Origin: Closterium sp. NIES-65
Lineage: Eukaryota > Streptophyta > Zygnematophyceae > Desmidiales > Closteriaceae
DNA length: 64,000 bases
Direction of reading: 5' to 3'
Assembly (NCBI GenBank): GCA_948144175.1
Contig: CANXME010002414.1
Span: 62,001 to 126,000, forward strand
Each line of letters starts with the position of its first letter. Positions within the stretch are counted from its first letter, which is position 1. This document shows positions 10,722-53,480 of this stretch, piece after piece. A model generated the notes under the pieces. That model worked only from the letters and a program-made list of their open reading frames with translations, did not search any database and had not been told where the DNA came from. The position numbers and the translations under genes are program-made.

Positions 10722-10951
10722 CCCGTCGCGGGCCAGTGCCACGGGGCGCACGACGGGTAGCATAAAAGGGCCCGATCGTGTGCCTCGGGGCACACGACGA
10801 GCAGGGCACCATCGTGTGCCACGGGGCGCACGATGGGCAGTAGAAGGGCACCGTCGCGTGCCACGGGGCGCGCGACGGGCAGGGAAGGAGTCACACGCCC
10901 GTGGGCGGGACAATGTAAAAATAAAGTCGTCACGCGCCCTAGGCGCGCGAC
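10722..10951 (-). repeat. Tandem hairpin array in the TRIM-1 leader
   Basis: At least five G+C-rich units, each an inverted repeat with a short loop. They are 10722-10757 (outer CCCGTCG/CGACGGG), 10776-10797 (9 bp, loop TCGG), 10809-10836 (12 bp, loop ACGG), 10851-10878 (12 bp, loop ACGG) and about 10926-10949 (loop CTA). Units three and four differ at two stem positions, and both arms change together. This points to selection on an RNA or DNA fold rather than on sequence. Confidence 0.75.
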
Positions 10952-11018
10952 CGGAAAACCTTAGCAGCGGAAGTGTAAAGTGGGCCCACAGGCCAGGACG
11001 AACCTAGCTCCGATAACA

Positions 11019-11280
11019 TGTCGAGAGTCTAAGTAATTTAAGAGTAGAAACGGGGGCCTAGGCTTAGTAGCCTAGGCCCTAACTTAGGTATCGAGCGGGT
11101 TTTCCCCTAGGAGCAATGTCGAGTGAGTTGAGAGGGAAATTGGTGAAAAGGTGGTTTCACTATAGGTTCAGGGGTACATATAGCATAGAAACAAAATAAG
11201 GTGCACCACCAACAAAAGTTTACATAACTACACTAACTACAACTACAAGCAATTATAAAACATGACAAAATATTTCGACA
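11019..11280 (-). repeat. 5' LTR of TRIM-1
   Basis: 262 bp. It differs from the other LTR at one position (AAGTAATTT versus AAGTAGTTT). The primer site and the shared leader block (sense CCTGTGGG) lie immediately next to it at 10984-11018. Confidence 0.93.
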
Positions 11281-12521
11281 GCTTGCGTCGAGGTGACTTG
11301 GCTGCTCGAAGGTCGGAGTTGTCGCTGTGGTGCTGCCGATTGATGACGATACGGGCAGTGCGTGCGAGGATGCCCTGAGGTCTTGCAGATATGGCAAAAT
11401 GGAGGTACTGACTTCGGTTGTTGTTGTTGTCGGTTGTTGCTGTTGTTCTAGCGTCGCTGGGTGTGAAAAGCGAACTCTGGTACTGACGCCTTCTTCTTAT
11501 GTCGTTCTTCTTGCAGGTCCATATCCTGTTGCTCGGCGTGGATTTCGGCGCAGAGTGCTGCTTCGGAGATTCTTCCGTGTGCTCGTAATATGGTGCGAGT
11601 GGAGCGCTAGTGAGGGCCGAGACCGCCGATGACGACCGTGACGAAGGCGTCTTCTGAAATTGATCCTCCACATCGAAGGAGCCTGTCGCGCAGTTCGCGG
11701 CAGCGACTGATATACTCCATGCCTTTCTCGCCGGGCTTCATTTCTATCGTTGTCAGCTGCGCCATTAACCGGCTTTGGTTTACACTGTCTATCGCTTAAT
11801 ACAAGTTCTTCAAATGGTTGTACGCGAGCTCCGCGGAGTTGCCGTAGCCTCGGTAAGGCCTGATGTTCTGCTGTTGAGTCGGGGTGATGTTCCTCAGCAG
11901 TATTGTGTACGCCATCATCAATTGATAAGTATACTGCTGCTTCTCATATTGTGTGCCGTTTGTTGGATATGGCAGGGACCCGTCGAAGAAGCCAAGGATC
12001 TGCGCTCCTTCCATCATCAGCTTGAATTCGAAGGACAAGGTAAAAAAGTCCTTTCCGTCAAAGGGCTTTGTCGTTTGCAGCTTTAGAACGTGCGCGAATT
12101 GCGACTGAACTTGTAATGCGTCTAGTGCTCTCTCTTGTCCCGGTGCAGGTTGTGGTTGCGGCATAAAGCTGACGGAGCCACGCTGGGGCTCGTACGGAGC
12201 AAAGGTGGGTTGTTGATGTTGATTCCCGCGTGCGTAGGATGAGCCATCGAGACTCATAGGTGTAGCGTTATTGTTGTTGTTGCTGTTGTTTGATTGCGCA
12301 GATGCTCCTTGCTGGTGCTGCTCGTAGAAGGACATGAAGGAGAAGAATTTCTCCATCATGCTTGGATCGAAGCCCGCGCCTTGGTTTGCGGGTGGTTCTG
12401 TAGACCCAGCTGCTGGTCTCGTCGTTGTCCCCTCCTCTGTCAGTAGGCCAGAGGCAGGTGGTGGAGTAGGGGTAGTACCGAGAGAGCCGTTGGAGGAGCT
12501 CCTCTCCTTTCTAGCAGACAT
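11281..12521 (-). pseudogene. A1 gag (stops and frame breaks)
   Basis: Starts at ATG 12521 with a Ser/Thr/Pro-rich N-terminus, MMEKFFSFMSFYEQHQQG, and a central region with QFAHVLKLQTTKPFDGKDFF and PTNGTQYEKQQYTYQ. The first frame ends at a TAA (11796) where A2 has CAA in SLYQATDG. Downstream, sequence similar to A2 gag continues in another frame up to the zinc-knuckle region, where TRIM-1 begins. It would have encoded the particle coat protein. Confidence 0.85.
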
Positions 12522-12580
12522 GTCTTCTTGATGTACTGAGTGTTGAATAATAAATTTTAACTCTAACTACTCTCATACCA

Positions 12581-21712: not shown

Positions 21713-21839
21713 TGTCAGATTTATATGACATAGCTGTTGTAGGCTATAGTGGGGTAGCACATATGGGGTACAGCTTTCTAGGGTTGTATTTGTACCCAAA
21801 TTTCACTTAGTCATTCTCATTCTCATTCTAATTTCCTCA
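21713..21839 (+). repeat. 5' LTR of B1
   Basis: 127 bp, TGTCAGATTTATATGACA to TTTCCTCA. The first 18 bases can form a TGTCA/TGACA stem. Confidence 0.93.
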
Positions 21840-21873
21840 TGGTATCGAGCACGTTCCCTCCTGGGAACTGTGC
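21840..21873 (+). promoter_or_regulatory. B1 primer binding site and adjacent stem-loop
   Basis: TGGTATCGAGC directly follows the LTR and resembles the initiator-tRNA-Met primer site. GCACGTTCCC-TCCT-GGGAACTGTGC right after it can fold as a stem-loop. Element D has a comparable stem with the same TCCT loop at its primer site. Confidence 0.7.
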
Positions 21874-21904
21874 CTAGGGCCCACCACATCAAACCCTTTT
21901 TTTT

Positions 21905-22760
21905 TTCCTGCCCGGAGCGCCCTAAGCCCGAGTCGCGCTCCAGCCTCTCACTTCGTCGAGCCACCCTAGCGGCCCCAACGCCCTAGTGGCCCCAACGCCC
22001 TAGCGGCCCCGTCCCCCTAAGCGGCCCCGCCGCCCTTCGCTGCGGCCCCGCCGCCTTTTACTACGGCCCCGCCGCCCATTGCTATGGCCCCGCCGACCTT
22101 CGCTGCGGCCCTGCCGCCTCTCACTGCGGCCCCGCCGCTCTTCGCTGCGGCCCCGCCGCCCTTCACGGCTGCCCCGCCGCCCTTCACTGCGGGCCCATCA
22201 GCCGTCGCTGCGGCCCTGCCGCCCTTCACTGCGGCCCCGCCGCTCTTCGCTGCGGCCCCACCGCCCTTCTCTGCGGCCCCGCCGCCCTTCGCTGCGGCCC
22301 CGCCACCTCTCTCGCTGCGGCCCCGCCGACTCCCTTGCGGCTCTGCCGCTCTTCGCTGCGGCCCCGCCACCCCTCTCGTTACGGCCCCGCCGCCCCTCTC
22401 GCTGCGGCCCCGCCGACTCCACCGCGGCCCCGCCGCCCCTCTCGTTGCGGCTCCGCCGACTCCACCGCGACCCCGCCGCCCTTCGCTGCAGCCCCGCCGC
22501 CCCTCTCGTTACGGCCGCGCCGCACTTGTCGCTGCGGCCCCGCCACTTACCTTGCGGCCTCGCCGCCCTACCCGCGGCCCTGCCGCTCTACACCACTAAG
22601 CCGCCCGCGCCGCTACGCAGCCCGAGCTGCCCGAGCCGCTCGACCTGCCCGAGCCGCCCGAGCCGCCCGAGCCGCCCGACTCGCCCGAGCCGCCCAAGCC
22701 GCCCGAGCCGCCCGACCCGCCCGAGCCGCCCGAGCTGCCTGAGCCGCTGAGGAGCCAAGC
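21905..22760 (+). repeat. G+C-rich tandem leader array of B1
   Basis: Degenerate repeats built on GCTGCGGCCCCGCCG and CCGCCCTTC, then from about 22610 a CCGAGCCGCC run. It lies between the primer site and gag. All frames are nearly open and give false Ala/Pro/Arg-rich proteins; none has a recognisable domain. Confidence 0.85.
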
Positions 22761-22932
22761 CGCTTGTGCCGCAGAGCCGCAGTTGCTGCTTAGCCGTCAG
22801 AGTCGCCCGAGCCGCCATGTTGCCGTGTTGCTGTGCCGCTGAGCTGCCCGAACCGCACTGTCTTGTGAGAGCAGCGCTTCTGTCACTGCACTGCCCCTGT
22901 CCTACAGCTTGTACTGCTAGTCCACTGCTGTC

Positions 22933-24186
22933 ATGGCTACCCCCAGTGTTCTCGCTTTTGACGGTGAGGGTCGGGCCATTGACTTTGAGGTCTGGGTAGA
23001 TGACCTGCAGCTTTTCCTACAGTGCGATAGGGCAGATGGTCTCTCCCTCTTTGACCTCCCCTCTGGCGCCTCTCCTGCCCCTGCTGCTGACGCTGACGCC
23101 ACTGTTCGCTCCCAGTGGGCCACGCGCAATGCTGCTGCACGTCTTGCTGTGTGTCACCACCTGCCTAGCACTGAGCGCGCGCACTTTAGTCAGTACAACA
23201 GTGCTCAGACCTTGTACGACGCTGTAGTTGCGCGCTACTCTTCCCCTGCCACTGCTGCACTAAGCCGCCTCATGCTACCGTACCTTTTCCCTGACCTTGC
23301 TGCCTTTCCCACAGTCGCTGACCTCATTACGCACCTCCGCACTAGTGACCCTCGCTACCGCGCTCCGCTTCCTGCTGCCTTCTGCGCCAAGAACCCCCCC
23401 CCCCCATGTACATCACTCTCTATTACATAGTCACCCGGCTCCCTGACTCTCTTCATGTAACCAGGGACCACTTCCTCTCAGTCTGTCCCACCACTCTTAC
23501 TGTTGACCTCCTAGAGAAGGCCCTCCTACCAGCGGAGAAGAGCATAGTCGCTATAGGAGCCTCTCGTGGTGACCCCCGCACCCCCATCTTTGAGGGGTGT
23601 TCCCCTTCCCCCCTTTTGCCCTCTGTCGCCTCTACTGCTGCGGCCGACCTCGTTGGTCTTGAGTCGGTCGGTGCAGCGTCTGCCCCTAGCGGGAGACGCC
23701 GCTTTGGCAAGGGCAAGGGGGGCAAGGGCGCAGGTCAAGTTAGCGGGGGTGGTGGAGGTGGCGGTGGAGGCGGAGGGGGGAGTGGGGGTGGCGGTCGGAG
23801 TGGTGGCGGGGGTGGAGGTGTCGGTGGCAGCAGAGGAGGCGGAGGCGGAGGAGGCGGTAGTGGTGGGAGCGGAGGCGGCGGTGGTGACGGAGGTGGAGGA
23901 GGCGGTGGTGGAGGAGGTGGAGCTGGTCGAGGTGGCGCTTCGCAGCGGAGCGGCTCCGGTGGTGGTCAGTGCCAGCAGCAGCAGCGTTCTCGGGACATTC
24001 CCCCCCCCTCAGTGGTACACGCAGCGTCAGCATGGTGGGGGTTTTGGTCCGTGCACCTACGTCCTTCGCTCCAGCGACCGCGCGGGTGAGCAGTGTGGGG
24101 GTACCCACTCCACCCAGCGCTGCTTTGGCCGCCTGACGGACGCTTGGCGTCAGCAGTTCCCGAAGGCTAGTGAGATCCCCCGCTAG
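22933..24186 (+). pseudogene. B1 gag (one frameshift) with Gly-rich tail
   Basis: Begins MATPSVLAFDGEGRAIDF. The coat region includes LQLFLQCDRADGLSL, VARYSSPATAALSRLMLPYLFPDL and TRLPDSLHVTRDHFL. A C-run near 23395-23405 breaks the frame. The tail is an unusually long Gly repeat (about 23740-23940), followed by a Cys/His-spaced stretch (GPCTYVLRSSDRAGEQCGGTHSTQRC) in a shifted frame that may bind RNA. It resembles E1 gag in plan. Confidence 0.85.
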
Positions 24187-24249
24187 GGAGAGCTGTCTAG
24201 GGCAGGTGTCGCTATCTATGATCTTGACTTTGATGCTATCCTTGCTGCC

Positions 24250-25917
24250 ATGTATGCTGTGACTATTAGTGATGAGGGTGACTGTTACCGGTGTTTCCCG
24301 CCCGACCAGGGCATTGGTACTACTGCGCTAGGTGCTAGTGAGGCTGCTGCTCTAGGTGCCAGTGCGTCTGCGCCCTCAGGTACTGGTGAGTCTGCGCTCT
24401 TAGGTACCACGTCGGCTTCGGCCTCCCTCACCTTCACACTTGACTCCGGGGCTTCTCGCTCCTTCTTTCGAGACCGCACCACACTCACGCCGCTTGGTCA
24501 GCCAGTTGCAGTCTCCTTGGCAGACCCCTCTGGGGGTCGTGTCCTCTCTCACTTCTCCACTGTCCTCCCGTGTCCAGCTGCCCCCTCTGGCACCTTGTCT
24601 GGTCTTTACCTCCCCTCGTTCTCTACGAACTTGGTGAGTGGTGGTGACCTACAGGATGCGGGGGTTCACCAGTTTACTCCTGTGAGTCAGCGGGTTACCC
24701 ACTGCTCGGACGCTCGCACAGGCCGGCACCTAGCCACGTTTACGCGTCGGCCGGGGTCGAGCCTCTACACCCTGACCACTGGGTCTCCTCCTATCCCTGC
24801 GTCTGGCCAGGTAGCTGCGTCGAGTCAGGTGCTTGCTGCAGCGTCCAGGTCTGGTCCTGAGTCTAGCCCCTGGTTGTGTCACCTCCTGTCTCACGAGACT
24901 CTCCTGTGGCACCACCGTCTTGGTCACCCCTCCCTGCCTCGTCTCCGAGGCATGGCTTCCCGTGTCCTTGTTTCTGGTCTTCCCCGGTCCCTCCCTCCCC
25001 TTCCTCGTGGACCTGGTCCTTCCTGCATCCTCTGTGTCGAGGGGCGGCTCCGGGATGCCCCTAACTCCTCTCAGTTTCCCCCGACAGAGGTCCCGCTGCA
25101 GACTCTTCACATGGACGTGTGGGGCCCAGCCCGCGTCCGCGGACACGTTCACGAGCGCTACTTCCTGCTGGTGGTTGACGACTACTCGCATTACACCACA
25201 GTCTTCCCCTTGCGCAGCAAGGGCGATGTCACTGAGGTGCTGATCGACTAGATCCGCGCAGCTCGTCTCCAGCTCAGGAGGAGCTTCGGCTCGGACTTTC
25301 CTGTTCTGCGTCTGCACTCTGACTGAGGCGGAGAGTTCTCCTCTGGCCTTCTACGAGCCTACTGCCGTGCGCGAGGCATCCGCCATACCTTTACGCTTCC
25401 GGAATCTCCACAGCAAAATGGGATTGCTGAGCGCCGCATTGGCATGGTCATGGACGTCGCTCGTACGTCCATGATGCATGCGGCTGCCCCCCATTTTCTG
25501 TGGCCGTTTGCGGTTCGGTACGCGGCGCATCAGATCAACCTTCACCCCTGGGTCTCCATGCCGGAGACCTCCCCAGCCTTGCTGTGGACGAGGAAGGTCG
25601 GCGATGCGTCTGCGTTCCGTGTCTGGGGATCTCGGGCGTTTGTCCGCGACTTGTCTGCGGACAAGATGTCCCCTCGTGCTGCTCCCTGTGTCTTCCTTGG
25701 CTTCCCCCCTGACGCCCCAGGGTGGCAGTTCTACCACTCCACCTCTCGACGTGTTCTCTCCTCCCAGGACGTCACGTTCAACGAGTCCGTCCCCTACTAC
25801 CGCCTCTTCCCCTACCTCACTCCTTCCCTCCCCTCGCCACAGCACTTCCTTGTGCCAGGTCCCCCCCCGGTAGACCCCCTCCCCCCTCAGGGTCCTGCCC
25901 CTTCAGGTATGTCCTAG
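24250..25917 (+). pseudogene. B1 protease-integrase (stops at 25249 and about 25324)
   Basis: Protease has the canonical FTLDSGASRSFFRDRT. Integrase shows HHRLGHPSLPRLR, a distal CILC pair, LHMDVWGPAR, YFLLVVDDYSHYTTVFPL and, after the stops, APHFLWPFAVRYAAHQINLHP and DVTFNESVPYY. TAG at 25249 replaces a Trp codon (E1 and E2 read LIRWLL), TGA near 25324 replaces Arg of HSDRGGEF, and TAG ends the frame at 25915. Confidence 0.88.
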
Positions 25918-36698: not shown

Positions 36699-36804
<106 letters not shown>

Positions 36805-37242: not shown

Positions 37243-37247
37243 CATGC

Positions 37248-39492: not shown

Positions 39493-39695
39493 CACCCCCA
39501 TAGCCTAAGTGAGGGGTGTCTAGCAAAATCAAAAAGAGTACGGTCACAAGACCAGTCCAAAAGAAAACAAAGCTCAGGGTGGATCACAACGTCACCACAC
39601 ACTCTGAGCACAAGCAACAGTGGCCACAAGGCCAGTCCAAGAGATCACAAGTATATATAGTAAGTGTACAGACGAAGCAGGCAATAACCTCAAGT

Positions 39696-41140
39696 CTACG
39701 CATGACTAGAACCTGTGTCAACAAGGCCTAACTGCACACAACACCTCTGGTGGTCACAAGGCGGAAGCGCCTTGGTGAAGATGTCGGCAGTGTTGGCCTC
39801 GGACTCCACGAACTCGAAGCGAGCCTGTCCACGTCTCTGCAACTCTCGCAGAAGAAAGTACCTGACGTGAATGTGCTTCACTCTGCTCTCCAGTCGCGGC
39901 TCACGACAGAGGAGGATCGACGCCTTGTTGTCAGTAAACAAGGTCGGTGCAGAGCTCGGCCGCTCACCAAGGTCGGCGAGCAAGAAGGTCAACCACCGCA
40001 ACTCCTGTGCCGCCATGGCACCAGCGTAAATCTCAGCCTCAGCTGTAGAGGTCGAGACAGAAGAGGAGCGCGTGGAACGCCAGGAAACAGCTCCAGAACC
40101 CAGACTGAAACAGTACCCCTGAGTAGACCTGTGAGTCTCAGCGTCGTCAGCGTAAGAGGAGTCACAGTGACCAGTGAGTACGACAGACGGCTGCCCTCCA
40201 AGAACTAGCCCCACGCCTGATGTAGTCGCTAGGTACTTCGCCACCCTCACAGCTGCCGTCCAGTGAACAGGACGGTGTCTCCCTGGCGCAACAAAGCGCG
40301 CAAGGATGCTGAGAGGGAAGGCGAGGTCCGGGCGAGTACAAGTCATCAGGTACATGAGGCAACCCACAAGCTCTGCGTAGGGACCACTAGGCTCAAACGG
40401 CTCGTCAGGAAAGGGACCAGTGAGTCTGTGGTCAACAGCGAGAGGTGTGCGCTGTACGGTGGAGTGCTGAAGCCCGAACCGCTGAAGGACCTGCTGCACC
40501 ATGTGTGACTGTGAGAGTGTAATGGTGCGAGCGGCTCTGTCCCTGGTGATCTGCAGGCCAAGGTAGTGGCGCAGCTCACCAAGATCAGTGCACGTGTGTC
40601 TCTTCTGCAGTTCGGACTTCACGTCTGCCAAAGCAACCCTGTCCGGAGTGGCGAAAACGAGGTCGTCGACGTAGACCAGGACAAAGAACGGTGTGGAGCC
40701 ACGACGAACGAACAGCGACGGGTCGGCAGAAGACGGCTGGAACCCAAGGTCAGAGAGGGTAGAACGCAGAGTGTCGTGCCACTCACGAGGGGCCTGGCGA
40801 AGACCGTAAACAGGTCGCCTCAGCCTCCACTGGGTCCCAGGAGGGAAAGTGCCAGTGAAGGCCGAGGGACGACGTAACCAGACCTCCTCGTGTAGGCTGC
40901 CCTGAAGGAAAGCAGTGGAGAAGTCGAGAGAGTGTAACTCGTAGTCTCTCTGTGCTGCTACGTGTAGTAACACCCGAAGAGTGGTCATCTTCGGGGTAGG
41001 TGCGAAGGTCTGAAAGAAGTCAACTCCCTCGCGCTGACTGAAACCTCTAGCCACGTAGCGCGCCTTGAAGACCGGGGGAGATCCCGGTGGCCGCTTCACC
41101 CTGTAGATCCACATGCCGTCGACTACGTTCGCCCCCGGGG
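39696..41140 (-). pseudogene. E1 reverse transcriptase-RNase H (open, disconnected upstream)
   Basis: The frame is open from the G-run at about 41133-41145 to the stop at 39696. It shows RT motifs PPPGANVVDGMWIYRVKR, SLDFSTAFLQGSLHEEVW, RRPVYGLRQAPREWHD and FFVLVYVDDLVFAT, then RNase H with LTGHCDSSYADD, SSVSTSTAEAEIYAGAMAAQE, LFTDNKASILLC and FVESEANTADIFTK. One extra G in the G-run relative to E2 separates it from integrase. Confidence 0.9.
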
Positions 41141-41211
41141 GGGGGAACCTCATCGACGTAGGTGCCTGTGGATCTGTAGGAGGCCATCTCTGCGTCCATG
41201 GCAGCTCTCCA

Positions 41212-43680
41212 CTAAGAGTCCCAAGGCCCTGACACTGCCTCAGCGTAAGTGCGAGGAGTCGGAATGTCAAGGGCGTCGGGGTCACCCTCAGGGGCGAGGA
41301 GCATGGCACAGAGATGAGGGGAAGCGGCCGCCAGGAACTCTAGCTCAAACTGCCTGTCCTCTAGGGCGTCACAGCCAAGGGCAGACACACCCCCGACGGC
41401 CAGAGGACTGGTAGGAGGAGCAGCCACAAGCGTGGTGGCGTAGTCAAGGCGACGCGTAGAGGCAAAGTCAGTAACTGCGGCAGTAAGAGCGGACACAGAG
41501 GACACAGAGGCACGAGGGTGAGTAACAAGAGAGGCGAGAACACGAGAGAGAACAGGACGGTACGTGCGGTAGTAGTCAGTGACGGGAGCAGGGAGCGACA
41601 CGGTGAGGGCCGACTCAGGAGGAGACGGAAGCACAGACTGAGACGGACGAGGTGGACTAGAACAAAGTAAGGCAGTACAAAGGTCAGTGAAGGGAACAGG
41701 AGACGAGGGACGAGCACGAGGGGAGCGACGAGTAGCCCAAGAACGAGACGGAGGAGGAGAGGACAAAGGCGGAGAACTGGAGAAAACAGCGGGGGAGGAG
41801 TCAGGCGGAGGAAACGTGGGACCGTAGACAGGAGGAGAGGCGGAGGAGGGAGGAGAAGGGGAGGGGAGACCAAGGGCCCGAAGACCCGAGACAGGAGGAG
41901 GAAGTGGCTGCTGCTGCTGCTGCTGCGACTGCTGCTGCTGCGGACGCGGCTGCTGCTGGGACTGCTGCTCCTGCGGGTCCAGCTGCTGCTGCTGCTGCTC
42001 CTGCGGGTCCAGCTGCTGCTGCTGCTCCTCCAGCCGCTGTAACTCCCTCTCCTCTCTCTCCAACGCCAGCTACTCGTCACGGGCACGGCGAACACGAGCC
42101 TGGTGCCTAGTCGGGTAGGGGTGGGGGGGCGGAGTAGTGTCCGAAGCAGCGGTAGCTCCAGAGTCCACCCCCGAAGAACCAGGCGCACCACCCCCAGAGG
42201 CAGCACTAACACCAGCTCCAGACCCAGGCTCACCAGAACCCGAAGGAGGTGCACTCTCACCCCCAGTGTCCGCGCGACCAGCACCAGCTCCCGGACGACA
42301 AGAGTCCTCTGCACCCACCGGGTCAGCTCCAACTCCAGAACCAGAAACTCCAGCTCCAACTCCAGCACCCCCAGAACCAGAAACTCCAGTGCCTCCTCCA
42401 GCTCCACCTCCTGCTCCAACACCAGCTCCACCTACAGCTCCAACACCAGCTCCAACACCAGCACCCCCAGAACCAGAAACCGGTACAGGAACAGGCGCCG
42501 CACCAACCTCTCGAGAGCTTGCACCAGCGGCACGCTGCGAGGAGGACTGTGGGGAGGGAGGCTGTACCGGAGGAGCTACCGAAGGAGGAGGGGTAGCCTG
42601 GGACACACCTGACGGGGCTGGGCCAGGGGGGGGAGGCTGTACCGGGGGAGCAGGAGGGGGAGCGGCAGTCAGGAAGAGGGGGGGAGGAGGAATCGGGAGA
42701 CCTCGACTGGGGTACCTGACGTAGTACGGAGTGGACTCCTCGAAACGGACGTCACGGGAGTCAAAGAACCGGTGAGAGGGAGGGTGGTAAAAGGTGAAGT
42801 CAGAGGAGTCCTCAGGGAAACCAAGGAAGACACAGGGGACGGCACGAGGCGAGAGCTTGTCCGCGGAGGTGTCGCGGACAAGAGCCAAGCACCCCCAGAC
42901 ACGAAACCGCGACGCAACACCAGGGGACCCTGTCCAAAGACTGGTCGGTGAAACCTCTGGTCGAGAGACACGTGGCCAGAGGTTCAGCTGGTGCGCGGCG
43001 TACCTGACCGCGTAGGGCCACAGAAAATGGGGGGCACAGGCGTGAGTCAGGGAGGTGCGGGCGATCTCCATGACCAGGCCTATGCGGCGCTCAGCAACCC
43101 CATTCTGCTGTGGGGACTCTGGAAGCGTCCAGGACTGACGAATGCCCTGCTCGCGACAGAATCCAGCGAGAATGCCGGAGCGAAACTCACCCCCACGGTC
43201 GGAGTGGAGACAGCTGACACAACGACCACGAGTGTCCTCGGTGGTGAGCAACCACCTGATCAGCGTAGAAGTCACCTCAGACTTCTTCGCCAGAGGGAAC
43301 ACTGTGGTGTAGCGGGAGAAGTCGTCAACGACCACCAGAAAGTAACGCTCACGCTCAGGGCCTAGACGAGGGGCGGGGCCCCAGACGTCCAAGTGAAGCG
43401 TCTCAAAAGGCTCGGTGGCCGGACGAAGGGAGGAGGAGTGAGGGGTGGCGCGCAGCCTACCCTCGACGCAGGGACGACACGGCGGCGCAAGCGAAGGCGG
43501 CAGCGACGGCAAGACACGTGGGAGGCCTAGGACAAGACGCTGACTAGACATAGCGCGCAGACAAGGAAGGGACGGGTGCCCCATCCGGTGGTGCCACAGA
43601 ACGGTGGGGTGGGCAAGCGACCGGCAGGAGCACGACGCAGCGACTGGAACAGACGTAGGAACCTGACACGACACAGACAC
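41212..43680 (-). pseudogene. E1 integrase and Pro/Gln-rich linker (two CAG to TAG stops)
   Basis: Integrase reads LWHHRMGHPSLPCLR, PCRPCVEGRL, LHLDVWGPAPRLG, YFLVVVDDFSRYTTVF, SDRGGEFRSGIL, SPQQNGVAERRIGLVMEIART and a C-terminal FRVWGCLALVRD. A Gly/Val/Ala repeat block and a polyglutamine linker (about 41900-42050) follow. TAG at 42070 stands where E2 keeps CAG (RARDEQLAL), and TAG at 41212 where E2 has CAG (ASQWRAAMD). All pieces are in one frame. Confidence 0.9.
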
Positions 43681-43794
43681 CTGGGGGGACGAAGCAACCT
43701 GGTGAGACGCGGGGACCCGAACGGGGGGGGGAACCGGGGGCAGTGGCAGTAGGGGGGGCTGCTGGTGCGGCCGCTGGTGCTGCTGCTGCTGCTG

Positions 43795-45732
43795 CTACTG
43801 CGGCTGCGGCTGCTGCTGCTGCTGCGGCTGCTGCTGCGGCGCACGCGGGCCAGTGTGAAGAGTGTAGAGACCCGAGCCCGGCTCAGCAGTAAAGGTAGCA
43901 AGAGGCTGGTAAGAGTCTCCGTCAACACACACCGCAGTCTCTCCAGAAGGCTCAAACCACACACCCACGTGCTGACTCACGAGGGGTCGCACGCCCACCA
44001 AGTTCCGGGAGAACGAGGGGACGTGAAATCCAGTGAGAGACCCGGAGGGAGCAGCAGGACACGGTAAAGTGGTAGTGTGACGTGCAGTGACTGGTCCCGT
44101 AGTGGGATCAGCCAACGCTACAGAAACAGGCGCAGGAAGTGGTGTAAGTGTCGTGCTGTCCCGGAAGAAGCAGTGGGAGGCTCCAGAGTCCAGTGTGAAC
44201 GACAGCGAAGCGTCGTCTGAGGTAGTCGCTGGTCTAGAGTCTACACAAGTACCTACACTAGCAACAGGCAACTGAGCAAGACTAGCACCTAAGCTAACAA
44301 CACCAGAGTAAACAGAGTCAGAAACACTAGAGTCAACAACAGCATACATAGCATGAGGAGCACTAATCAGATCAACTAACTGCTCAGCAGACATGCCCCA
44401 CAGAGCGAAGCCGTAGCGCTGAACCAGAGGAAGCCAGTCAGGAGCAGGACCGCCAACCCCGTAGGTCAACCGGACCGTGTCAGTGAGCTGAGCAAAGCAC
44501 TGACTAGGGGGGTGAAAGCGGCCACAAGGGTGGCCCCGACGAGGACCTGTCTGAACCTGGTAGGGGCAGGGAGGGTAAGCCGCACCGCGCTGGGGCTGAC
44601 GCAGCCCCGACCCCGGAGCCAGCTGCTGACGCTGCTGCTGCTGAGGCTGCTGGGAGGAAAGGGGCTGATGCTGCTGCTGAAGGTGCTGCTGACGCTGAGC
44701 CTGGTACCACGCCGCTGCTCCACCTAGCGGGGCCGGCAGTACAGGAGGCGACTGACGAGCTCGGGGGTCGCCGCCACCAGCAGGTGCAGTGGAGTCACCA
44801 GCCGCTGCACGAGGGGTCTCTCCAGACGCTGCACTCCCACCACCGCCAGTCGCAACAGCACCCCCACTACCTCCGCTACCTCCGCCTCCACCTCCACCAG
44901 AACCACCTTTCTTGCCCCCCCTGCCGCGGGACCGCGACGCAGTCGTAACAGCAGCCGCAGTCGCGTCAGTAGCGGCAGTGGCAAGAGAGGCAGTGAAGGT
45001 GGGTAACTGCGGGACTGTGCACCCGTGGAAGAGTGGGGGGGACACAGTACCAGAGGCGGCAGCTACCGAACGAAGGTTGCTCTCGACGTCCTTGAGTGCA
45101 GACTCAAGGACCTCGATAGTCAGCTCACTAGGGTGCTTCAGCAGAAGCGCGTCACGAACAGAGGCAAGGCGGTCAGGGAGGCTAGTGGCGATGAAATAGA
45201 CAGTGATCGCCATGGGGGGAGGAAGCAGTGCAAGCTGTGCCTCAGTGCAAGCAGCGCGGTAACTAGCGTCGAGCGAGCGGAGGTGAGCGATCAAGTCAGC
45301 AGAGCGCTCAAACGAGGCAAGATCAGGAAACAGGAACGGGAGGAAAAGACGGCCAAGAGAGACAGTAGCGGGAGTAGAGTAGCGGGCCTTAATCGCAGTG
45401 AGGTACGCAGCAGCGGTGCGAACTTGAGTAAAGTGGACCTCCTCAGACTCAGGGAGGAGGCTGCTGAGTGCGATGCAGGCCGCAGCGTCACGCGACGTCC
45501 AAGCCGTCCGGTCAGCGCGCTGACGGGCAAAGCGAGCCGTAGCAGCGTCGTCAGGAGCAGGGCCTAAAGCTGTAGGCTCGGGGGGCTCGGGGAGGTCACC
45601 AGTAGCGTGTGACCAGAGGGTCTCGCCCCCCTGGACCTGACTCTCTAACAGGCGGCGAGCGCAAAGAAGCCAGACGGAAAAGTCAAGTGGTCTACCGTCA
45701 GCGTCGAAACGAAGAACTCGCGGAGTCGCCAT
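43795..45732 (-). CDS. E1 gag-protease open frame (645 aa)
   Basis: Starts at ATG 45732, MATPRVLRFDADGRPLDF, parallel to B1 gag. The coat region includes LLESQVQGGETLW, RYSTPATVSLGRLFLPFLFPDL and FIATSLPDRLASVRDALLL. A Gly-rich basic segment, a Gln-rich segment and the Cys/His spacing PCPYQVQTGPRRGHPCGRFH..C follow. The protease FTLDSGASHCFFRDS is canonical. The frame ends at TAG 43795, where E2 has CAG in a polyGln tract, so the ancestral frame continued into integrase. It would form particles and process the polyprotein. Confidence 0.88.
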   Translation of the reverse strand: MATPRVLRFDADGRPLDFSVWLLCARRLLESQVQGGETLWSHATGDLPEPPEPTALGPAPDDAATARFARQRADRTAWTSRDAAACIALSSLLPESEEVHFTQVRTAAAYLTAIKARYSTPATVSLGRLFLPFLFPDLASFERSADLIAHLRSLDASYRAACTEAQLALLPPPMAITVYFIATSLPDRLASVRDALLLKHPSELTIEVLESALKDVESNLRSVAAASGTVSPPLFHGCTVPQLPTFTASLATAATDATAAAVTTASRSRGRGGKKGGSGGGGGGGSGGSGGAVATGGGGSAASGETPRAAAGDSTAPAGGGDPRARQSPPVLPAPLGGAAAWYQAQRQQHLQQQHQPLSSQQPQQQQRQQLAPGSGLRQPQRGAAYPPCPYQVQTGPRRGHPCGRFHPPSQCFAQLTDTVRLTYGVGGPAPDWLPLVQRYGFALWGMSAEQLVDLISAPHAMYAVVDSSVSDSVYSGVVSLGASLAQLPVASVGTCVDSRPATTSDDASLSFTLDSGASHCFFRDSTTLTPLPAPVSVALADPTTGPVTARHTTTLPCPAAPSGSLTGFHVPSFSRNLVGVRPLVSQHVGVWFEPSGETAVCVDGDSYQPLATFTAEPGSGLYTLHTGPRAPQQQPQQQQQPQPQ

Positions 45733-45769
45733 AGTGAGAACTAAAGCGAACGAACAGGCGAGTAAGAAC

Positions 45770-46475
45770 CGGGGGGGAAGAGGACTCAGGTGCAGCGGAA
45801 GAGCGGGCTAGGGCGACGGGCCAGGACGTAGGGAGGGCAACGGGCCAGAGCCTAGGGTAGGGCGACGGGCCAGGGCCTAGGGTAGGGCGACTGGCCAGGG
45901 CTTAGGATAGGGCGACGGGCCAGGGCTTAGGGAGGGCGACGGGCCAGGGCCTAGGGTAGGGCGACGGGCCGGGGCCTAGGGTAGGGCGACGGGCCAGGGC
46001 CTAGGGTAGGGCGACGGGCCAGGGCGTAGGGCAGGGCGACGCGACGGGGGAAAGGGCGGGAGCGACGCGATGGGGCAGGGCGACGCGACGACACAGGGCG
46101 ACGCGACGGGGCAGGGCGGCGCGACGTGGCAGGGCGACGGGACGGGGCAGGGCGACGCGACGGGGTAGGGTGACGCGACGGGACAGGGCGACGGGACGGG
46201 GGGGTACCAGGCGGGCACGACGCGACGGGGGGAACGGGCGCGACGCGACGGGGGGGAAAGGGCGTGACGCGACGGGGGGAAAGGGCGCGACGCAACGGGG
46301 GGGAGGGGAAAGGGCGCGAGGCGACGGGGAGAAAGGGCGCTAAGCGACGGGGGAAAGGGCGCTAGGCTCGGTACTAGGCGCGGTAACAACGGAACTGGTA
46401 CGAACGAGAGGTAGGATCAGGCTCGGGAGGTACGAACGGAGAACGGAGGAACGGGATCCCACAGGATCCTAACCT
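45770..46475 (-). repeat. G+C-rich leader array of E1
   Basis: Between gag and the primer site. The first part has a 25-bp period (plus-strand AGGGCGACGGGCCAGGGC then CTAGGGT), the second shorter GGGCGACGCGACGGGGC and GCGACGCGACGGGGGG units. On the sense strand the core reads CCCGTCGC. Open frames across it are Arg/Pro-rich artefacts. Confidence 0.88.
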
Positions 46476-46486
46476 AGCTGATACCA

Positions 46487-46597
46487 TGTCAGAATGAGGA
46501 ATGAATGGTTCCATTGATGTTGGTTGGGGTACATATAACAAACCCTAACTTCTGTACCCCCTAAGACAAACCTCACTACAGGCTACAACATTTGACA
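46487..46597 (-). repeat. 5' LTR of E1
   Basis: 111 bp. The primer site TGGTATCAGCTAGG (sense) ends at 46486. On its right the E2 body restarts at AGAGT. Confidence 0.93.
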
Positions 46598-46758
46598 AGA
46601 GTACGGTCACAAGACCAGTCCAAAAGAAAACAAAGCTCAGGGTGGATCACAACGTCACCACACACTCTGAGCACAAGCAACAGTGGCCACAAGGCCAGTC
46701 CAAGAGATCACAAGTATATATAGTAAGTGTACAGACGAAGCAGGCAATAACCTCAAGT

Positions 46759-49700
46759 CTACGCATGACTAGAACCTGTGTCAACAAGGCCTAACTGCAC
46801 ACAACACCTCTGGTGGTCACAAGGCGGAAGCGCCTTGGTGAAGATGTCTGCAGTGTTGGCCTCGGACTCTACAAACTCGAAGCGAGCCTGTCCACGCCTC
46901 TGCAACTCTCGCAGAAGAAAGTATCTGACGTGAATGTGCTTCACTCTGCTCTCCAGTCGCAGCTCACGACAGAGGAGGATCGACGCCTTGTTGTCAGTAA
47001 ACAAGGTCGGTGCAGAGCTCGGCCGCTCACCAAGGTCGGCGAGCAAGAAGGTCAACCACCGCAACTCCTGTGCCGCCATGGCACCAGCGTAAATCTCAGC
47101 CTCAGCTGTAGAGGTCGAGACAGAAGAGGAGCGCGTGGAACGCCAGGAAACAGCTCAAGAACCCAGACTGAAACAGTACCCCTGAGTAGACCTGTGAGTC
47201 TCAGCGTCGTCAGCGTAAGAGGAGTCACAGTGACCAGTGAGTACGACAAACTGCTGCCCTCCAAGAACTAGCCCCACGCCTGATGTAGTCGCTAGGTACT
47301 TCGCCACCCTCACAGCTGCCGTCCAGTGAACAGGACGGTGTCTCCCTGGCGCAACAAAGCGCGCAAGGATGCTGAGAGGGAAGGCGAGGTCCGGGCGAGT
47401 ACAAGTTATCAGGTACATGAGGCAACCCACAAGCTCTGCGTAGGGACCACTAGGCTCAAACGGCTCGTCAGGAAAGGGACCAGTGAGTCTGTGGTCAACA
47501 GCTAGAGGTGTGCGCTGTACGGTGGAGTGCTGAAGCCCGAACCGCTGAAGGACCTGCTGCACCATGTGTGACTGTGAGAGTGTAATGGTGCGAGCGGCTC
47601 TGTCCCTGGTGATCTGCAGGCCAAGGTAGTGGCGCAGCTCACCAAGATCAGTGCACGTGTGTCTCTTCTGCAGTTCGGACTTCACGTCTGCCAAAGCAAC
47701 CCTGTCCGAAGTGGCGAAAACGAGGTCGTCGACGTAGACCAGAACAAAGAACGGTGTGGAGCCACGACGAACGAACAGCGACGGGTCGGCAGAAGACGGC
47801 TGGAACCCAAGGTCAGAGAGGGTAGAACGCAGAGTGTCGTGCCACTCACGAGGGGCCTGGCGAAGACCGTAAACAGGTCGCCTCAGCCTCCACTGGGTCC
47901 CAGGAGGGAAAGTGCCAGTGAAGGCCGAGGGACGACGCAACCAGACCTCCTCGTGTAGACTGCCCTGAAGGAAAGCAGTGGAGAAGTCAAGAGAGTGTAA
48001 CTCGTAGTCTCTCTGTGCTGCTACGTGTAGTAACACCCGAAGAGTGGTCATCTTCGGGGTAGGTGCGAAGGTCTGAAAGAAGTCAACTCCCTCGCGCTGA
48101 CTGAAACCTCTAGCCACGTAGCGCGCCTTGAAGACCGGGGGAGATTCCGGTGGCCGCTTCACCCTGTAGATCCACATGCCGTCGACTACGTTCGCCCCAG
48201 GGGGGGGAACCTCATCGACGTAGGTGCCTGTGGATCTGTAGGAGGCCATCTCTGCGTCCATGGCAGCTCTCCACTGAGAGGCCCAAGGCCCTGACACTGC
48301 CTCAGCGTAAGTGCGAGGAGTCAGAATGTCAAGGGCGTCGGGGTCACCCTCAGGGGCGAGGAGCATGGCACAGAGATGAGGGGAAGCGGCCGCCAGGAAC
48401 TCTAGCTCAAACTGCCTGTCCTCTAGGGCGTCACAGCCAAGGGCAGACACACCCCCGACGGCCAGAGGACTGGTAGGAGGAGCAGCCACAAGCGTGGTGG
48501 CGTAGTCAAGGCGGCGGGTAGAGGCAAAGTCAGTAACTGCGGCAGTAAGAGCGGACACAGAGGACACAGAGGCACGAGGGTGAGTAACAAGAGAGGCGAG
48601 AACACGAGAGAGAACAGGACAGTACGTGCGGTAGTAGTCAGTGACAGGAGTAGGGAGCGACACGGTGAGGGCCGACTCAGGAAGAGACGGAAGCACAGAC
48701 TGAGACGGACGAGGTGGACTAGAAAGAAGGAAGGCAGTACGAAGGTCAGTGAAGGGAATAGGAGACGAGGGACGAGCACGAGGGGAGCGACGAGTAGCCC
48801 AAGAACAAGACGGAGGAGGAGAGGACAAAGGCGGAGAACTGGGGAAAACAGCGGGGGAGGAGTCAGGAGGAGGAAACGTGGGACCGTAGACAGGAGGAGA
48901 GACGGAGGAGGGAGGAGAAGGGGAGGGGAGACCAAGGATCCGAAGACCCGAGACAGGAGGAGGAAGTGGCTGCTGCTGCTGCGGCTGCGACTGCTGCTGC
49001 TGCGGACGCGGCTGCTGCTGGGACTGCTGCTCCTGCGGGTCCAGCTGCTGCTGCTGCTGCTGCTGCTCCTGCGGCTCCAGCTGCTGCTGCTGCTCCTCCA
49101 GCCGCTGTAACTCCCTCTCCTCTCTCTCCAACGCCAGCTGCTCGTCACGGGCACGGCGAACACGAGCCTGGTGCCTAGTCGGGTAGGGGTGGGGGGGTGG
49201 AGTAGTGTCCGAAGCAGCGGCAGCTCCAGAGTCCACCTCAGAAGAACTAGGCGCACCACCCCCAGAGGCAGCACTAACACCAGCTCCAGAACCAGGCTCA
49301 CCTGAACCCAAAGGAGGCGCACCCTCACCCCCAGACACAGCACCCCCAGTGTCCGTGCGGCCAGCACCAGCTCCCGGACGACAAGAGTCCTCTGCACCCA
49401 CCGGGTCTGCTCCAACTCCAGAACCAGAAACTCCAGCTCCAACCCCAGCTCCAACTCCAGCACCCCCAGAACCAGAAACTCCAGTGCCAACTCCAGCTCC
49501 AACTCCAGCTCCAACTCCAGCACCCCCAGAACCAGAAACCGGTACAGGAACAGGCGCCGCACCAACCTCTCGAGAGCTAGCACCAGCGGCACGCTGCGAG
49601 GAGGACTGTGGGGAGGGAGGCTGTACCGGAGGGGCTACCAAAGGAGGAGGGGTAGCCTGGGACACACCTGACGGGGCTGGACCAGGGGGCGGAGGCTGTA

Positions 49701-50739
49701 CCGGGGGAGCAGGAGGGGGAACGGCAGTCAGGAAGAGGGGGGGAGGAGGAACCGGGAGACCTCGACTGGGGTACCTGACGTAGTACGGAGTGGACTCCTC
49801 GAAACGGACGTCACGGGAGTCAAAGAACCGGTGAGAGGGAGGGTGGTAAAAGGTGAAGTCAGAGGAGTCCTCAGGGAAACCAAGGAAGACACAGGGGACG
49901 GCACGAGGCGAGAGCTTGTCCGCGGAGGTGTCGCGGACAAGAGCCAAGCACCCCCAGACACGAAACCGCGACGCAACACCAGGGGACCCTGTCCAAAGAC
50001 TGGTTGGTGAAACCTCTGGTCGAGAGACACGTGGCCAGAGGTTCAGCTGGTGCGCGGCGTACCTGACCGCGTAGGGCCACAGAAAATGGGGGGCACAGGC
50101 GTGAGTCAGGGAGGTGCGGGCGATCTCCATGACCAGGCCTATGCGGCGCTCAGCAACCCCATTCTGCTGTGGGGACTCTGGAAGCGTCCAGGACTGACGA
50201 ATGCCCTGCTCGCGACAGAATCCAGCGAGAATGCCGGAGCGAAACTCACCCCCACGGTCGGAGTGGAGACAGCTGACACGACGACCACGAGTGTCCTCGG
50301 TGGTGAGCAACCACCTGATCAGCGTAGAAGTCACCTCAGACTTCTTCGCCAGAGGGAACACTGTGGTGTAGCGGGAGGAGTCGTCAACGACCACCAGAAA
50401 GTAACGCTCACGCTCAGGGCCTAGACGAGGGGCGGGGCCCCAGACGTCCAAGTGAAGCGTCTCAAAAGGCTCGGTGGCCGGACGAAGGGAGGAGGAGTGA
50501 GGGGTGGCGCGCAGCCTACCCTCGACGCAGGGACGACACGGCGGCGCAAGCGAAGGCGGCAGCGACGGCAAGACACGTGGGAGGCCTAGGACAAGACGCT
50601 GACTAGACATAGCGCGCAGACGAGGAAGGGACGGGTGCCCCATCCGGTGGTGCCACAGAACGGTGGGGTGGGCAAGCGACCGGCAGGAGCACGACGCAGC
50701 GACTGGAACAGACGTAGGAACCTGACACGACACAGACAC
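46759..50739 (-). CDS. E2 integrase-RT-RNase H, one frame with a single TGA
   Basis: The best-preserved pol of family E. From 50739 one frame runs through integrase (HHRMGHPS, CRPCVEG, VVVDDSSRYTTVF, QNGVAERRIG), the Gly/Val and polyGln linkers (about 48960-49100), RT (VLVYVDDLVFAT) and RNase H (TAEAEIYAGAMAAQE after the stop) to 46759. The only break is TGA at 47155-47157 in GYCFSLGS, where E1 reads GGA. The upstream protease is in another frame because of G-runs at 50783-50808. Needed for cDNA synthesis and integration; without gag it could act only in trans. Confidence 0.88.
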
Positions 50740-50809
50740 CTGGGGGGACGAAGCAACCTGGTGAGACGCGGGGACCCGAACGGGGGGGGGAACCGGGGGG
50801 GGGGAACCA

Positions 50810-51273
50810 GGGGCAGTGGCAGTAGGTGGGGCTGCTGGTGCGGCCGCTGGTGCTGCTGCTGCTGCTGCTGCTGCGGCTGCGGCTGCTGCTGCTGCTGCGG
50901 CTGCTGCTGCGGCGCACGCGGGCCAGTGTGAAGAGTGTAGAGACCCGAGCCCGGCTCAGCAGTAAAGGTAGCAAGAGGCTGGTAAGAGTCTTCGTCAACA
51001 CACACCGCAGTCTCTCCAGAAGGCTCAAACCACACACCCACGTGCTGACTCACGAGGGGTCGCACGCCCACCAAGTTCTGGGAGAACGAGGGGACGTGAA
51101 ACCCAGTGAGAGACCCGGAGGGAGCAGCAGGACACGGTAAAGTGGTAGTGTGACGTGCAGTGACTGGTCCCGTAGTGGGATCAGCCAACGCTACAGAAAC
51201 AGGCGCAGGAAGTGGTGTAAGTGTCGTGCTGTCCCGAAAGAAGCAGTGGGAGGCTCCAGAGTCCAGTGTGAAC
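50810..51273 (-). pseudogene. E2 protease fragment fused to the leader array (gag deleted)
   Basis: Reads SFTLDSGASHCFFRDSTTL, VSVALADPTTGPVTARHTT and a Gln-rich tail, equivalent to the end of the E1 gag-protease frame. Upstream the match to E1 stops at GTGAACGAC and jumps to leader sequence GCGACGGGGGAAAGG, removing all of gag (about 1.8 kb in E1). Short shared GCGAC/CGAC words at both ends suggest microhomology deletion. Confidence 0.88.
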
Positions 51274-51830
51274 GACGCGACGGGGGAAAGGGCGGGAGCG
51301 ACACGACGGGGCAGGGCGACGCGACAGGACAGGGCGACGCGACGGGGCAGGGCGGCGCGACGGAGCAGGGCGACGGGACAGGGCAGGGCGACGTGACGGG
51401 GTAGGGCGACGCGACGGGACAGGGCGACGGGACAGGGCAGGGCGACGCGACGGGACAGGGCGACGGGACAGGGCAGGGCGACGCGACGGGACAGGGCGAC
51501 GGGACGGGGGGGGGTAATAGGCGGGCGCGACGCGACGGGGGGAACGGGCGCGACGCGACGGGGGGGAACGGGCGCGACGCGACGGGGGGAACGTGCGCGA
51601 CGCGACGGGGGGAACGGGCGCGACGCGACGGGGGGAACGGGCGCGACGCGACGGGGGGAACGGGCGCGACGCGACGGGGGGGGACGGGCGTGACGCGACG
51701 GGGGAGATGGCGCGAGGCTCGGTACTAGGCGCGGTAACAACGAAACTGGTACGAACGAGAGGTAGGATCAGGCTCGTGAGGTACGAACGGAGAACGGAGG
51801 AACGGGATCCCACAGGATCCTAACCTAGCT
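51274..51830 (-). repeat. G+C-rich leader array of E2
   Basis: Repeats of GGGCGACGGGACAGGGCAGG and GGCGCGACGCGACGGGGGG. It is the same type as the E1 leader but has a different unit count. It ends with GGATCCCACAGGATCC and AACCTAGCT next to the primer site. Confidence 0.88.
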
Positions 51831-51837
51831 GATACCA

Positions 51838-51947
51838 TGTCAGGATGAGGAATGGGTGTTCCATTGATGTTGGTTGGGGTACATATAACAAACCCTAACT
51901 TCTGTACCCCCTAAGACAAACCTCACTACAGGCTACAACATTTGACA
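51838..51947 (-). repeat. 5' LTR of E2
   Basis: 110 bp, the same GGAATGGGTG variant as 39222-39331. The primer site (sense TGGTATCAGCTAGG) adjoins it. Confidence 0.92.
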
Positions 51948-53480
51948 TTAGGAATGGGTTTGGGGGTGTGAATTATGCAAAGAAAAACAAACAGGAGAAG
52001 GTGATAAACAAAGTGAGTCAAGGAGTCGGAAGAGGAGAGTGAGAGGCCGACGGAAACACGGACGCGAGGGGAGAGGGAGAGAACAAGGGGCCAAAGGTTA
52101 CTGGTTGGGTGATGGGAGGGGCATTGGGGAGGGGAGGGCACGAGGGCGACGGTACGGGACGGGAGGTGCGAGCGCGAAGGCGACGGGACGGGACGGGAGA
52201 ACACGAGGGCAACAGGAAGGGACGGGAGGTGCGAGCGAGAAGGCGATGAGAGACGAGAACGTGAGCACGAGGGAGATGGGAGGGGAGACCATGAGCGCGA
52301 AGGTGGTGCGAAGATGGGAGAACGTGAGCGGGATGGCGGGGGAAGGGGAGAACGTGAGCGCAATGGCGGGGGAAGAGGAGAACGTGAGCGCGATGGCGGG
52401 GGAAGGGGAGAACGTGAGCGCGATGGCGGGTGAAGGGGAGAACGTGAGCGCGATGGCGGGGGAAGGGGAAAACGTGAGCGCGATGGCGGGGGAAGGGGAG
52501 AACGTGAGCGCGATGGCGGGGGAAGGGGAGAACGTGAGCGCGATGGCGGGGGAAGGGGAGAACGTGAGCGCGATGGCGGGGGAAGGGGAGAACGTGAGCG
52601 CGATGGCGGGGGAAGGGGAGAACGTGAGCGCGATGGCGGGGGAAGGGGAGAACGTGAGCGCAATGGCGGGGGAAGGGGAGAACGTGAGCGCGATGGCGGG
52701 GGAAGGGGAGAACGTGAGCGTGATGGCGGGGGAAGGTGACAAGCACAAGCGCGGTGGCAGCTTGTGAAGGTTCTGCAAAGAGCGAGAGAGGTTAGGATTA
52801 TTTGCTGCGTATGAAGACTTTGGGCCTGAGAGAGGGCGGCAAAATCGCTGAGAAAACCAAAAGGAGGGAAAAAACAGAGAGAAACAATGTGAGGGAAGAG
52901 GAGAGAGAGGGCGACAGAAACAATGAGGGCTACTGGACAAGAGCCCGGTTCGAGGGCGAGATGAGAGGGGAACACGAGGGCGACGGGATGGGAGTGGAGA
53001 GATGATAGGCAACGGGAGGGCGGCTCAGAGCGAGCGCAAAGGCGACGAAGTGGGTAATGGGAGGGGAGTGAAGAAGGGAGCCGCGAGGGCGTTTCAAGGC
53101 CAGCGGCAGGGCGATGGGCGAGGAGAGTCGACTGTGCGCAACAAGAGGGCATTGCGGGCTTAGGGCGACGACGATGATGTGGGTAATAGGAGGGGAGACG
53201 TGGGAGGCGACGAGAGTGCGCCTCGATTTCGAGGCGAGCGCATAGGCGACGAGGTGGGTGACGGGAGGGGAGAAAGGAAGGGCGACGAGAGGGCGTTTCA
53301 GGGTGAGCGAGAATGTAACGATGTGGGTGATGGGAGGGGAAACGGGGAGGGTACGCGAAGTGCGACGGGTAAAGGGGGGGCGAAGGTAATGGCGAGGGAA
53401 AGGCGACATGGGCTGACGGCGATGCGGAGGTTGACGATTGTGCTACTGGCGGGAAAAATAGCACTGCGCTACTAGGCTAC
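51948..53480. repeat. Degenerate CCCGTCGC-type minisatellite region, minus-strand orientation
   Basis: A purine-rich tract of imperfect units such as GAGGGCGACGGGATGGGAG and GGTGACGGGAGGGGAGA. It encloses the regular 30-bp array at 52321-52740. Long open frames on both strands have only repeat composition. No gene is supported. Confidence 0.75.
52321..52740. repeat. 30-bp tandem repeat, 14 copies
   Basis: The unit AACGTGAGCGCGATGGCG plus GGGGAAGGGGAG repeats in exact register 14 times (420 bp), with few substitutions, mostly CG to CA/TG. It ends in GGTGACAAGCACAAG. Confidence 0.95.

Follow-up and report, generated by a model that had tools for sequence, protein, structure and literature searches.

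In a stretch of 64,000 nucleotides from the genome of the desmid alga Closterium sp. NIES-65 (assembly GCA_948144175.1, contig CANXME010002414.1, positions 62,001 to 126,000 of the forward strand, G000:C2116:62001-126000 in our numbering; hereafter, the window), several families of retrotransposons with short long terminal repeats (LTRs), denoted TRIM-1, B, D, E and F, contain C+G-rich tandem arrays in their leaders. The interpretation that we tentatively favor, at a probability of roughly 45%, is that these arrays are the variable part of an inherited, exchangeable leader module of a single short-LTR group of Copia elements. This interpretation is supported by the position and the strand of the arrays, a common word, CCCGTCGC (hereafter, the core), the homology of the LTRs, a covarying hairpin and one mosaic element. 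The arrays and the core were originally noticed in an inspection of the window sequence without database searches (the sequence-only reading); that observation is real and general, but the independence of the families was overstated, and the free arrays located outside of the elements were misread.

The putative module would start with the primer site, followed within about 10-20 nt by a palindromic hairpin and then by a C-rich, CpG-rich tandem array, after which comes gag in the coding families and non-coding sequence in the TRIM-like families. The array appears to be built on variants of GCGGCCCCG(T/C)CGCCCT, with the core as a very common word within it.

Leader arrays and their common word

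Across the 874 Mb assembly (2,400 contigs), paired cores were detected in 10,651 places, compared to 1,191 places for the reversed pattern. We sampled 41 distinct clusters of paired cores among the first 100 listed places, on contigs C1-C32 (3 taken as loci from the paired-core search and 38 fetched separately). In 32 of these clusters, a short LTR in the same orientation ends 154-607 bp upstream, which places them in sense leaders, as the sequence-only reading had proposed for the window; sorted by best match and leader type, these comprise 9 E, 17 B-like, 4 T-like, 1 C and 1 D leader. Two further clusters (L009 and L036) have a same-orientation LTR at 949 and 1,294 bp, respectively. The other seven lack one, and four of the seven (L011, L026, L030 and L032, the last with an opposite-orientation LTR at 546 bp) hold arrays resembling the free arrays of the window.

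A second set consists of leaders that were not selected by the core. Among the sampled loci, 11 further leaders were found, of which one (L038+4353), located behind a 3' LTR, was discarded; the remaining 10, together with the TRIM-1, D, F, E1 and B1 leaders of the window, make up a set of 15. All 15 contain tandem repeats identified by Tandem Repeats Finder (TRF), whereas none were found by TRF in the leaders of three copies of the long-LTR family A, in which gag lies close to the LTR. The core is present in 11 of the 15 leaders, against a mean of 2.6 and a maximum of 7 in 200 shuffles, and in 7 of the 10 genome leaders it is in the sense orientation, one of these containing an antisense copy as well. 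The reverse complement of the core occurs in 2 leaders and the reversed word in 3. The strand balance, which had been named beforehand as one of the points on which the proposal of a shared core would stand or fall, came out in favor of the proposal, at 84 sense and 3 antisense cores in this set. The core is tied with GCGGCCCC and CGCCGCCC as the commonest 8-mer, and GTCGCCCT (10 leaders compared to 1.0 in shuffles) and GCCCGTCG (10 compared to 1.4) are part of the same phrase. Against the proposal, the word is also found in the non-leader arrays of 4 of the 41 sampled clusters.

Within the window, TRF confirms the tandem arrays reported for the interiors of TRIM-1, D, F, E1 and E2, and likewise the one in B1. 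The arrays of E, D and TRIM-1 lie next to the primer site as claimed, and so does that of F once the D element nested in it is set aside. The core occurs 57 times in the window, compared to 3.5 expected from shuffles, with sense/antisense counts in the individual leaders or interiors of 18/0 in E1, 16/0 in E2, 3/0 in D, 2/0 in F, 1/1 in TRIM-1 and 0/0 in B1. The assertion that each element repeats the core on its sense strand does not hold for TRIM-1, where the match at 10722 is antisense and where allowing one mismatch yields 6 sense and 2 antisense sites. The core belongs to the consensus unit only in E (all three unit types) and D. The B1 array had been described as different, and it indeed lacks the exact core, but its unit, GCGGCCCCGCCGCCC, contains the core with a T->C change, and there are 17 one-mismatch sites compared to 4.8 expected.

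The free arrays, which the sequence-only reading suggested might be decayed leaders, are an inverted pair with collinear non-repetitive flanks, and the decayed-leader reading is therefore ruled out; four similar non-leader loci are present elsewhere in the sample. The segment 34069-34284 pairs in inverted orientation with 53929-53704 (66.5% identity, E 2e-19), and 37252-37400 pairs with 53672-53519 (65.6%), in the same order and with both arrays further in. When F and E2 are set aside, an inverted-repeat element of roughly 4 kb is left. It spans 34069-53929 and is interrupted by F (with D) and E2 (with E1), the outer flanks showing a 66% inverted match; its left arm consists of an outer part (34069-34290, plus strand), split off by F, and an inner part (37243-38485, plus strand) that holds the free array 37525-38420, and its right arm (51990-53929, minus strand) holds the free array 51990-53460 and is oriented opposite to the left arm. 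These arrays carry the core although they are not leaders. At 38840-38925, there is a short near-palindrome (TCACTATTTT...AAAATAGTGA), the halves of which are similar to the outer ends of both arms and which may represent either a junction of two such ends or a small element related to them.

LTR relationships, the leader hairpin and a mosaic element

The E elements show the features of LTR retrotransposons of the Ty1/Copia type. E1 has LTRs, a target-site duplication (TSD, AGAGT), the primer site TGGTATCAGC and TATGGGGGTG preceding the 3' LTR. In the E2 frame (47155-50955, minus strand), the domains gag_pre-integrase (85-146), rve (161-262) and RVT_2 (919-1151) come in the Copia order, with integrase ahead of the RVT_2-type reverse transcriptase. 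This frame has 7,427 protein matches; among the 120 listed, 108 are from Closterium, including strains NIES-53, NIES-54, NIES-64, NIES-65, Yama58-4 and Naga37s-1.

The claim that the families have different LTRs fails for most of them. Pairwise alignments among the E, D, B1 and B2 LTRs reach z values of 6.9-15.4 (with single-letter shuffles as the null), and the C LTR matches all four in the opposite orientation, with scores of 81-158. The TRIM-1 LTR reaches z 5.9 with E but only 2.1-3.7 with D, B1 and B2. The polypurine end TATGGGGGTG, which precedes TGTC, is common to E and B1, and close variants are found in TRIM-1 and D. These alignment scores indicate that E, D, B and C form one LTR group, of which TRIM-1 likely is a distant member, with F apart.

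A hairpin next to the primer site is more constant in position than the array. After removal of duplicates, 46 leaders were reduced to 35 distinct ones; L038+4353 was left out, and so was L009, in which the apparent primer site, judged by reading only, resembles a tRNA-type sequence. In 28 of the 35, a perfect stem of at least 5 bp is found behind the primer site, with GTTCCC/GGGAAC in B, GGATCC/GGATCC in E, TCGACCC or TCGATCC with matching partners in D and C, and TAGGTCG/CGACCTA and GGTCC/GGACC in the T-like elements. In a covariation test on 15 distinct fragments, in an alignment hand-cut around the stem, the score is 0.663, whereas shuffles give 0.196 and none of 500 attains the observed value; sliding the alignment yields at most 0.284. 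Of the cells, 85.7% are paired, compared to 58.7%. Within this alignment, the stem is supported by compensatory changes, as would be expected of a packaging or dimerisation hairpin of the Ty1 kind.

Additional short motifs connect the primer-proximal regions. TRIM-1, D and E all have the word CCTGTGGG next to the primer site, compared to 2 of 5,000 shuffled triples that have any 8-mer in common; outside of this match, primer-proximal pairwise scores are modest. Another word, TTCCGCTGC, is located 45-62 nt downstream of the primer site in TRIM-1, D and C. One T-like element has it within that range as well, and two others have it at 171 and 867; in 9 of 10 genome E leaders, it lies at 661-726 (686 in E1 of the window), that is, behind the array. 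We also observed CTTCCGCTGC on the minus strand at 10964, 35829 and 45792, in the window only in the TRIM-1, D and E1 leaders, behind the array in E1 and before it in TRIM-1 and D. Given that the hairpin is more constant in place and covaries, and that the array unit changes fast, the palindromic hairpin appears to be a better candidate for a packaging signal than the array.

The turnover of the arrays and their apparent exchange are illustrated by a second D element, at locus L038. Its LTRs are 93.5% identical to those of the window D over 124 bp, and its 3' interior is of the D type (69.9% over 674 bp), but the array units are 21 bp compared to 47 bp, suggesting that the unit turns over fast even within one family. 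The first 58 nt behind its primer site score 38 to the T-like element T16, 24 to TRIM-1 and only 18 to the window D, whereas its LTR matches those of both T elements at noise level. The highest-scoring matches of its array are to two B leaders (201 and 194), followed by T16 (131), another two B leaders (107 and 103), a C element (101), the window D (92) and E (70); no shuffle exceeds 65. In our reading, this element combines at least D and T sources with a B-like array, and such a mosaic would arise if template switching occurred between co-packaged RNAs.

Competing explanations and known systems

In the scenario that we favor, the non-coding families would be carried by the coding ones, because they keep the primer site, the hairpin and the polypurine tract; for TRIM-1 and D, the clues to such mobilisation in trans are common primer-proximal motifs, polypurine ends and one mosaic only. 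The hairpin rather than the array would be the likelier dimerisation or packaging contact. The array would expand and contract by slippage and would spread from one family to another through switching of the reverse transcriptase from one co-packaged RNA to the other, for which its repeats would provide matching sequence; it would then be kept mainly by descent and exchange rather than by a need for an exact sequence.

Several observations weigh against this scenario. The 41 clusters were picked by the core itself and from a limited set of contigs, and the 15 leaders of the second set are not independent given that the B leaders are related. In the average shuffle, some word also reaches 11 of the 15 leaders, and the case therefore depends on the core having been specified beforehand by the sequence-only reading. 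The LTR and polypurine tract of F are unlike those of the E/D/B group, and F has two cores in the window copy and none in the L038 copy. Only 12 of the 35 stems are individually significant at p<0.05, and the covariation alignment was cut by hand. Furthermore, TTCCGCTGC precedes the array in TRIM-1, D and C but follows it in E, and for this reason the arrays may not be positionally homologous. The mosaic case was examined in detail for one element only; by shared 10-mers over 700 nt, the leader of this element is closest to a C element (68), followed by B (56 and 54) and T16 (50), and gene conversion is an alternative route to its structure.

The results for the window itself bear directly on the possibility that the arrays are neutral minisatellites, spawned by C-rich leaders, with a common word that stems from composition and shared ancestry alone. 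Because tandem copies are not independent, units were shuffled for the null; the 5- to 8-mers common to the E, D, F, TRIM-1 and B1 units show no excess over shuffled units, and only two 8-mers are common to D, F and E, below the mean of 6.0 for shuffled whole arrays. The sense strand of each of the five arrays is richer in C than in G, and words are shared predominantly in sense (sense/antisense 23/2 for D-E, 25/0 for F-E, 18/5 for D-F and 10/8 for TRIM-1-E), but shuffled arrays tilt similarly (45/11 expected for D-E), so that the sense excess in the window is largely a matter of composition. The window alone does not prove a shared core, and composition explains the sharing. The core in arm-type arrays and the rapid change of the units fit the same explanation, but the genome leaders weaken it: the shared core, which does not survive the tandem-aware dinucleotide null in the window, is recovered in sense in 11 of 15 leaders, beyond the maximum of the shuffles, and tandem repeats are found by TRF in every one of these leaders and in none of the three family A leaders. 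We therefore consider a purely compositional origin unlikely. About as doubtful is the original suggestion that the array itself is the packaging or copying signal that enables non-coding elements to move, for example, by offering many weak Gag-binding sites. The apparently non-coding TRIM-1, D, C and T-like elements do carry arrays or core-bearing repeats, and the sense bias counts in favor of such a signal; however, unit sequence and period vary within a family, and the arrays have no common RNA fold, with z values for pieces of 136-149 nt ranging from -5.2 (TRIM-1, which folds as hairpins) to +1.1 (F). Tandem repeats identified by TRF make up only 98 of the 938 bp in the T-like element of L044, and the family A copies lack leader arrays by TRF altogether.

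A regulatory role, with the array acting as a CpG-rich enhancer or island with repeated binding sites downstream of the transcription start, seems quite unlikely. The observed/expected CpG ratio is 1.11-1.52 in the six leader arrays and 1.4-1.5 in the free arrays, compared to 0.35-0.75 for the remainder of the array-bearing elements, and a leader enhancer reportedly present in the Drosophila copia element would be a precedent. Another is the Sirevirus lineage of Copia, in which repeated CGG-CCG palindromes border CpG islands, although, in the accessible part of that article, these motifs precede the TATA box of the 3' LTR and also adjoin the ENV gene, instead of being located, as in Closterium, in the 5' leader (PMC2829016). 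An enhancer would not be expected to show the strand bias, and the family A interior has a CpG ratio near 1.0 without arrays. Translation of the array as an N-terminal extension of Gag is highly improbable. Among 219 retrieved proteins (221 records minus two window translations), crude filtering for Pro/Arg-rich stretches retained 37; on visual inspection, the stretch is ahead of gag or in its place in about 20 of these and in pol or elsewhere in 17, and among the gene models with at least 40 residues before the gag start, 6 of 14 contain it, two of them apparently representing one locus. A protein search with one leader stretch retrieved 8 proteins including the query, all Closterium Copia gene models; these are translations, from which a core in the DNA of the respective genes is deduced. 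The E2 array is open in all three sense frames and in frame with the polyprotein, but gene models are biased toward open frames, units of 25 and 23 bp shift the frame, and stops in the three sense frames of the E1 array (2, 5 and 3) and the B1 array (2, 3 and 2) rule out a coding function for these two.

A broader proposition, which we regard as speculative and unlikely, is that the hairpin and the C-rich array form a portable cassette shared and swapped by coding and parasitic families via template switching, in which the array would serve both as a homology landing strip and as a many-site Gag contact; any pair of short LTRs that gained the module would thereby become mobile. If so, F, with its unrelated LTR and polypurine tract, would have acquired the array part independently.

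The continued mobility of non-coding LTR elements is a long-standing problem, and in few systems is it known which signal admits them to the particles of another element. In this alga, a compact leader with a covarying hairpin is common to coding and non-coding families, and one element is apparently a mosaic of sources; the leaders thus offer short, testable candidates for such a signal in an algal relative of land plants, and they naturally document how retroelement RNAs have recombined. The comparisons that follow refer to the accessible parts of the cited articles. Terminal-repeat retrotransposons in miniature (TRIMs), known from plants and some algae including Chlamydomonas and Volvox, have a short non-coding interior between short LTRs with a primer site and a polypurine tract, a layout that TRIM-1 and D appear to share, but an interior tandem array or leader hairpin is not described there, 'tandem repeat' being used only for discarded sequences (PMC4717578). 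Family-specific internal tandem arrays are present in about half of the studied Gypsy elements of the Retand lineage; these lie between pol and the 3' LTR, whereas the arrays of the Closterium Copia elements follow the primer site (PMC11963269). Ty1 contains 5'-terminal hairpins and palindromes for dimerisation and packaging, and mini-Ty1 is mobilised by a helper (PMC5454406); BARE2 is packaged in BARE1 particles, with conserved signals (PMC3735527). In contrast to these, the Closterium hairpin is deduced from covariation alone and adjoins a tandem array. In wheat, template switching or gene conversion has been proposed to transfer LTRs when autonomous and non-autonomous elements change partners (PMC9744471), whereas in the L038 D element the primer-proximal leader and the array would be of other origin and the LTR stays of the D type. 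In the accessible parts of the literature searched, no report of leader arrays in Closterium retroelements was found.

Elements and other features of the window

TRIM-1 and D each possess two short LTRs, a TSD (with one mismatch in D), a primer site and a polypurine tract, and their interiors, of 729 and 1,259 bp, respectively, contain stop-free frames of up to about 270 aa on C+G-rich sequence. TRIM-1 (10028-11280, minus strand; LTRs 10028-10289 and 11019-11280; TSD GCTTG), for which no coding domain was named, contains its array at 10736-10884 and a short palindrome, GGCC-TGTG-GGCC (10983-10994), adjoining the primer site. D (34493-36039, minus strand; LTRs of about 145 bp at both ends; flanks CACAG/CAAAG), with the array at 35329-35677 and the hairpin TCGACCC-TCCT-GGGTCGA at 35864-35881, is nested in the leader of F, behind the primer site that starts at 34483. 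F itself (34291-37242, plus strand; 5' LTR 34291-34482, 3' LTR 37021-37242; TSD CATGC) has its array at 36182-36453 and a (GA)n tract at 36702-36802.

B1 (21713-29384, plus strand; LTRs 21713-21839 and 29258-29384; TSD GCATA) contains the hairpin GTTCCC-TCCT-GGGAAC at 21853-21868 and an array of 21-bp and 9/36-bp units at 21964-22747; its coding region includes a 266-bp tandem duplication (26887-27424, 87% matches). E1 (39382-46597, minus strand) has a gag frame at 43795-45807, an array of 25-, 18- and 23-bp units at 45809-46362 and the hairpin GGATCC-TGTG-GGATCC at 46454-46469. It sits in the 3' end of E2, and a single LTR common to E1 and E2 was rejected as an explanation of this arrangement. 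The 3' LTR (39222-39331) and polypurine region of E2 (39222-39381, minus strand) are separated by E1 from its main part (46598-51947, minus strand), which comprises the pol frame, the array (51298-51704), the hairpin (51805-51820) and the 5' LTR (51838-51947); the outer flanks GTAGG/TTAGG match in 4 of 5 positions. The 18-bp unit is present in 7.8 copies in E1 and 11.8 in E2. Most of gag is missing from E2 relative to E1, and at 50586-51767 a deletion fuses the array in frame to the remaining polyprotein, creating a 393-codon open frame.

No tRNA genes and no Rfam families at the gathering score were detected in the window, and a scan of IMG/VR with one E LTR word and one array word yielded 0 matches for each. 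Two single C-type LTRs (6404-6535 and 9843-9975) lie within a family A copy; elsewhere in the genome (L022), two C LTRs flank a non-coding interior with an array. After the right-hand LTR of an A copy, a primer-site-like TGGTATGAGAGC is found at 33271-33282, as if a second A interior began there. The window also contains a perfect tandem array of a 52-bp unit (55452-55767, 6.1 copies) and a 434-bp array of CCTCA pentamers (556-989) that is C-rich on the plus strand.

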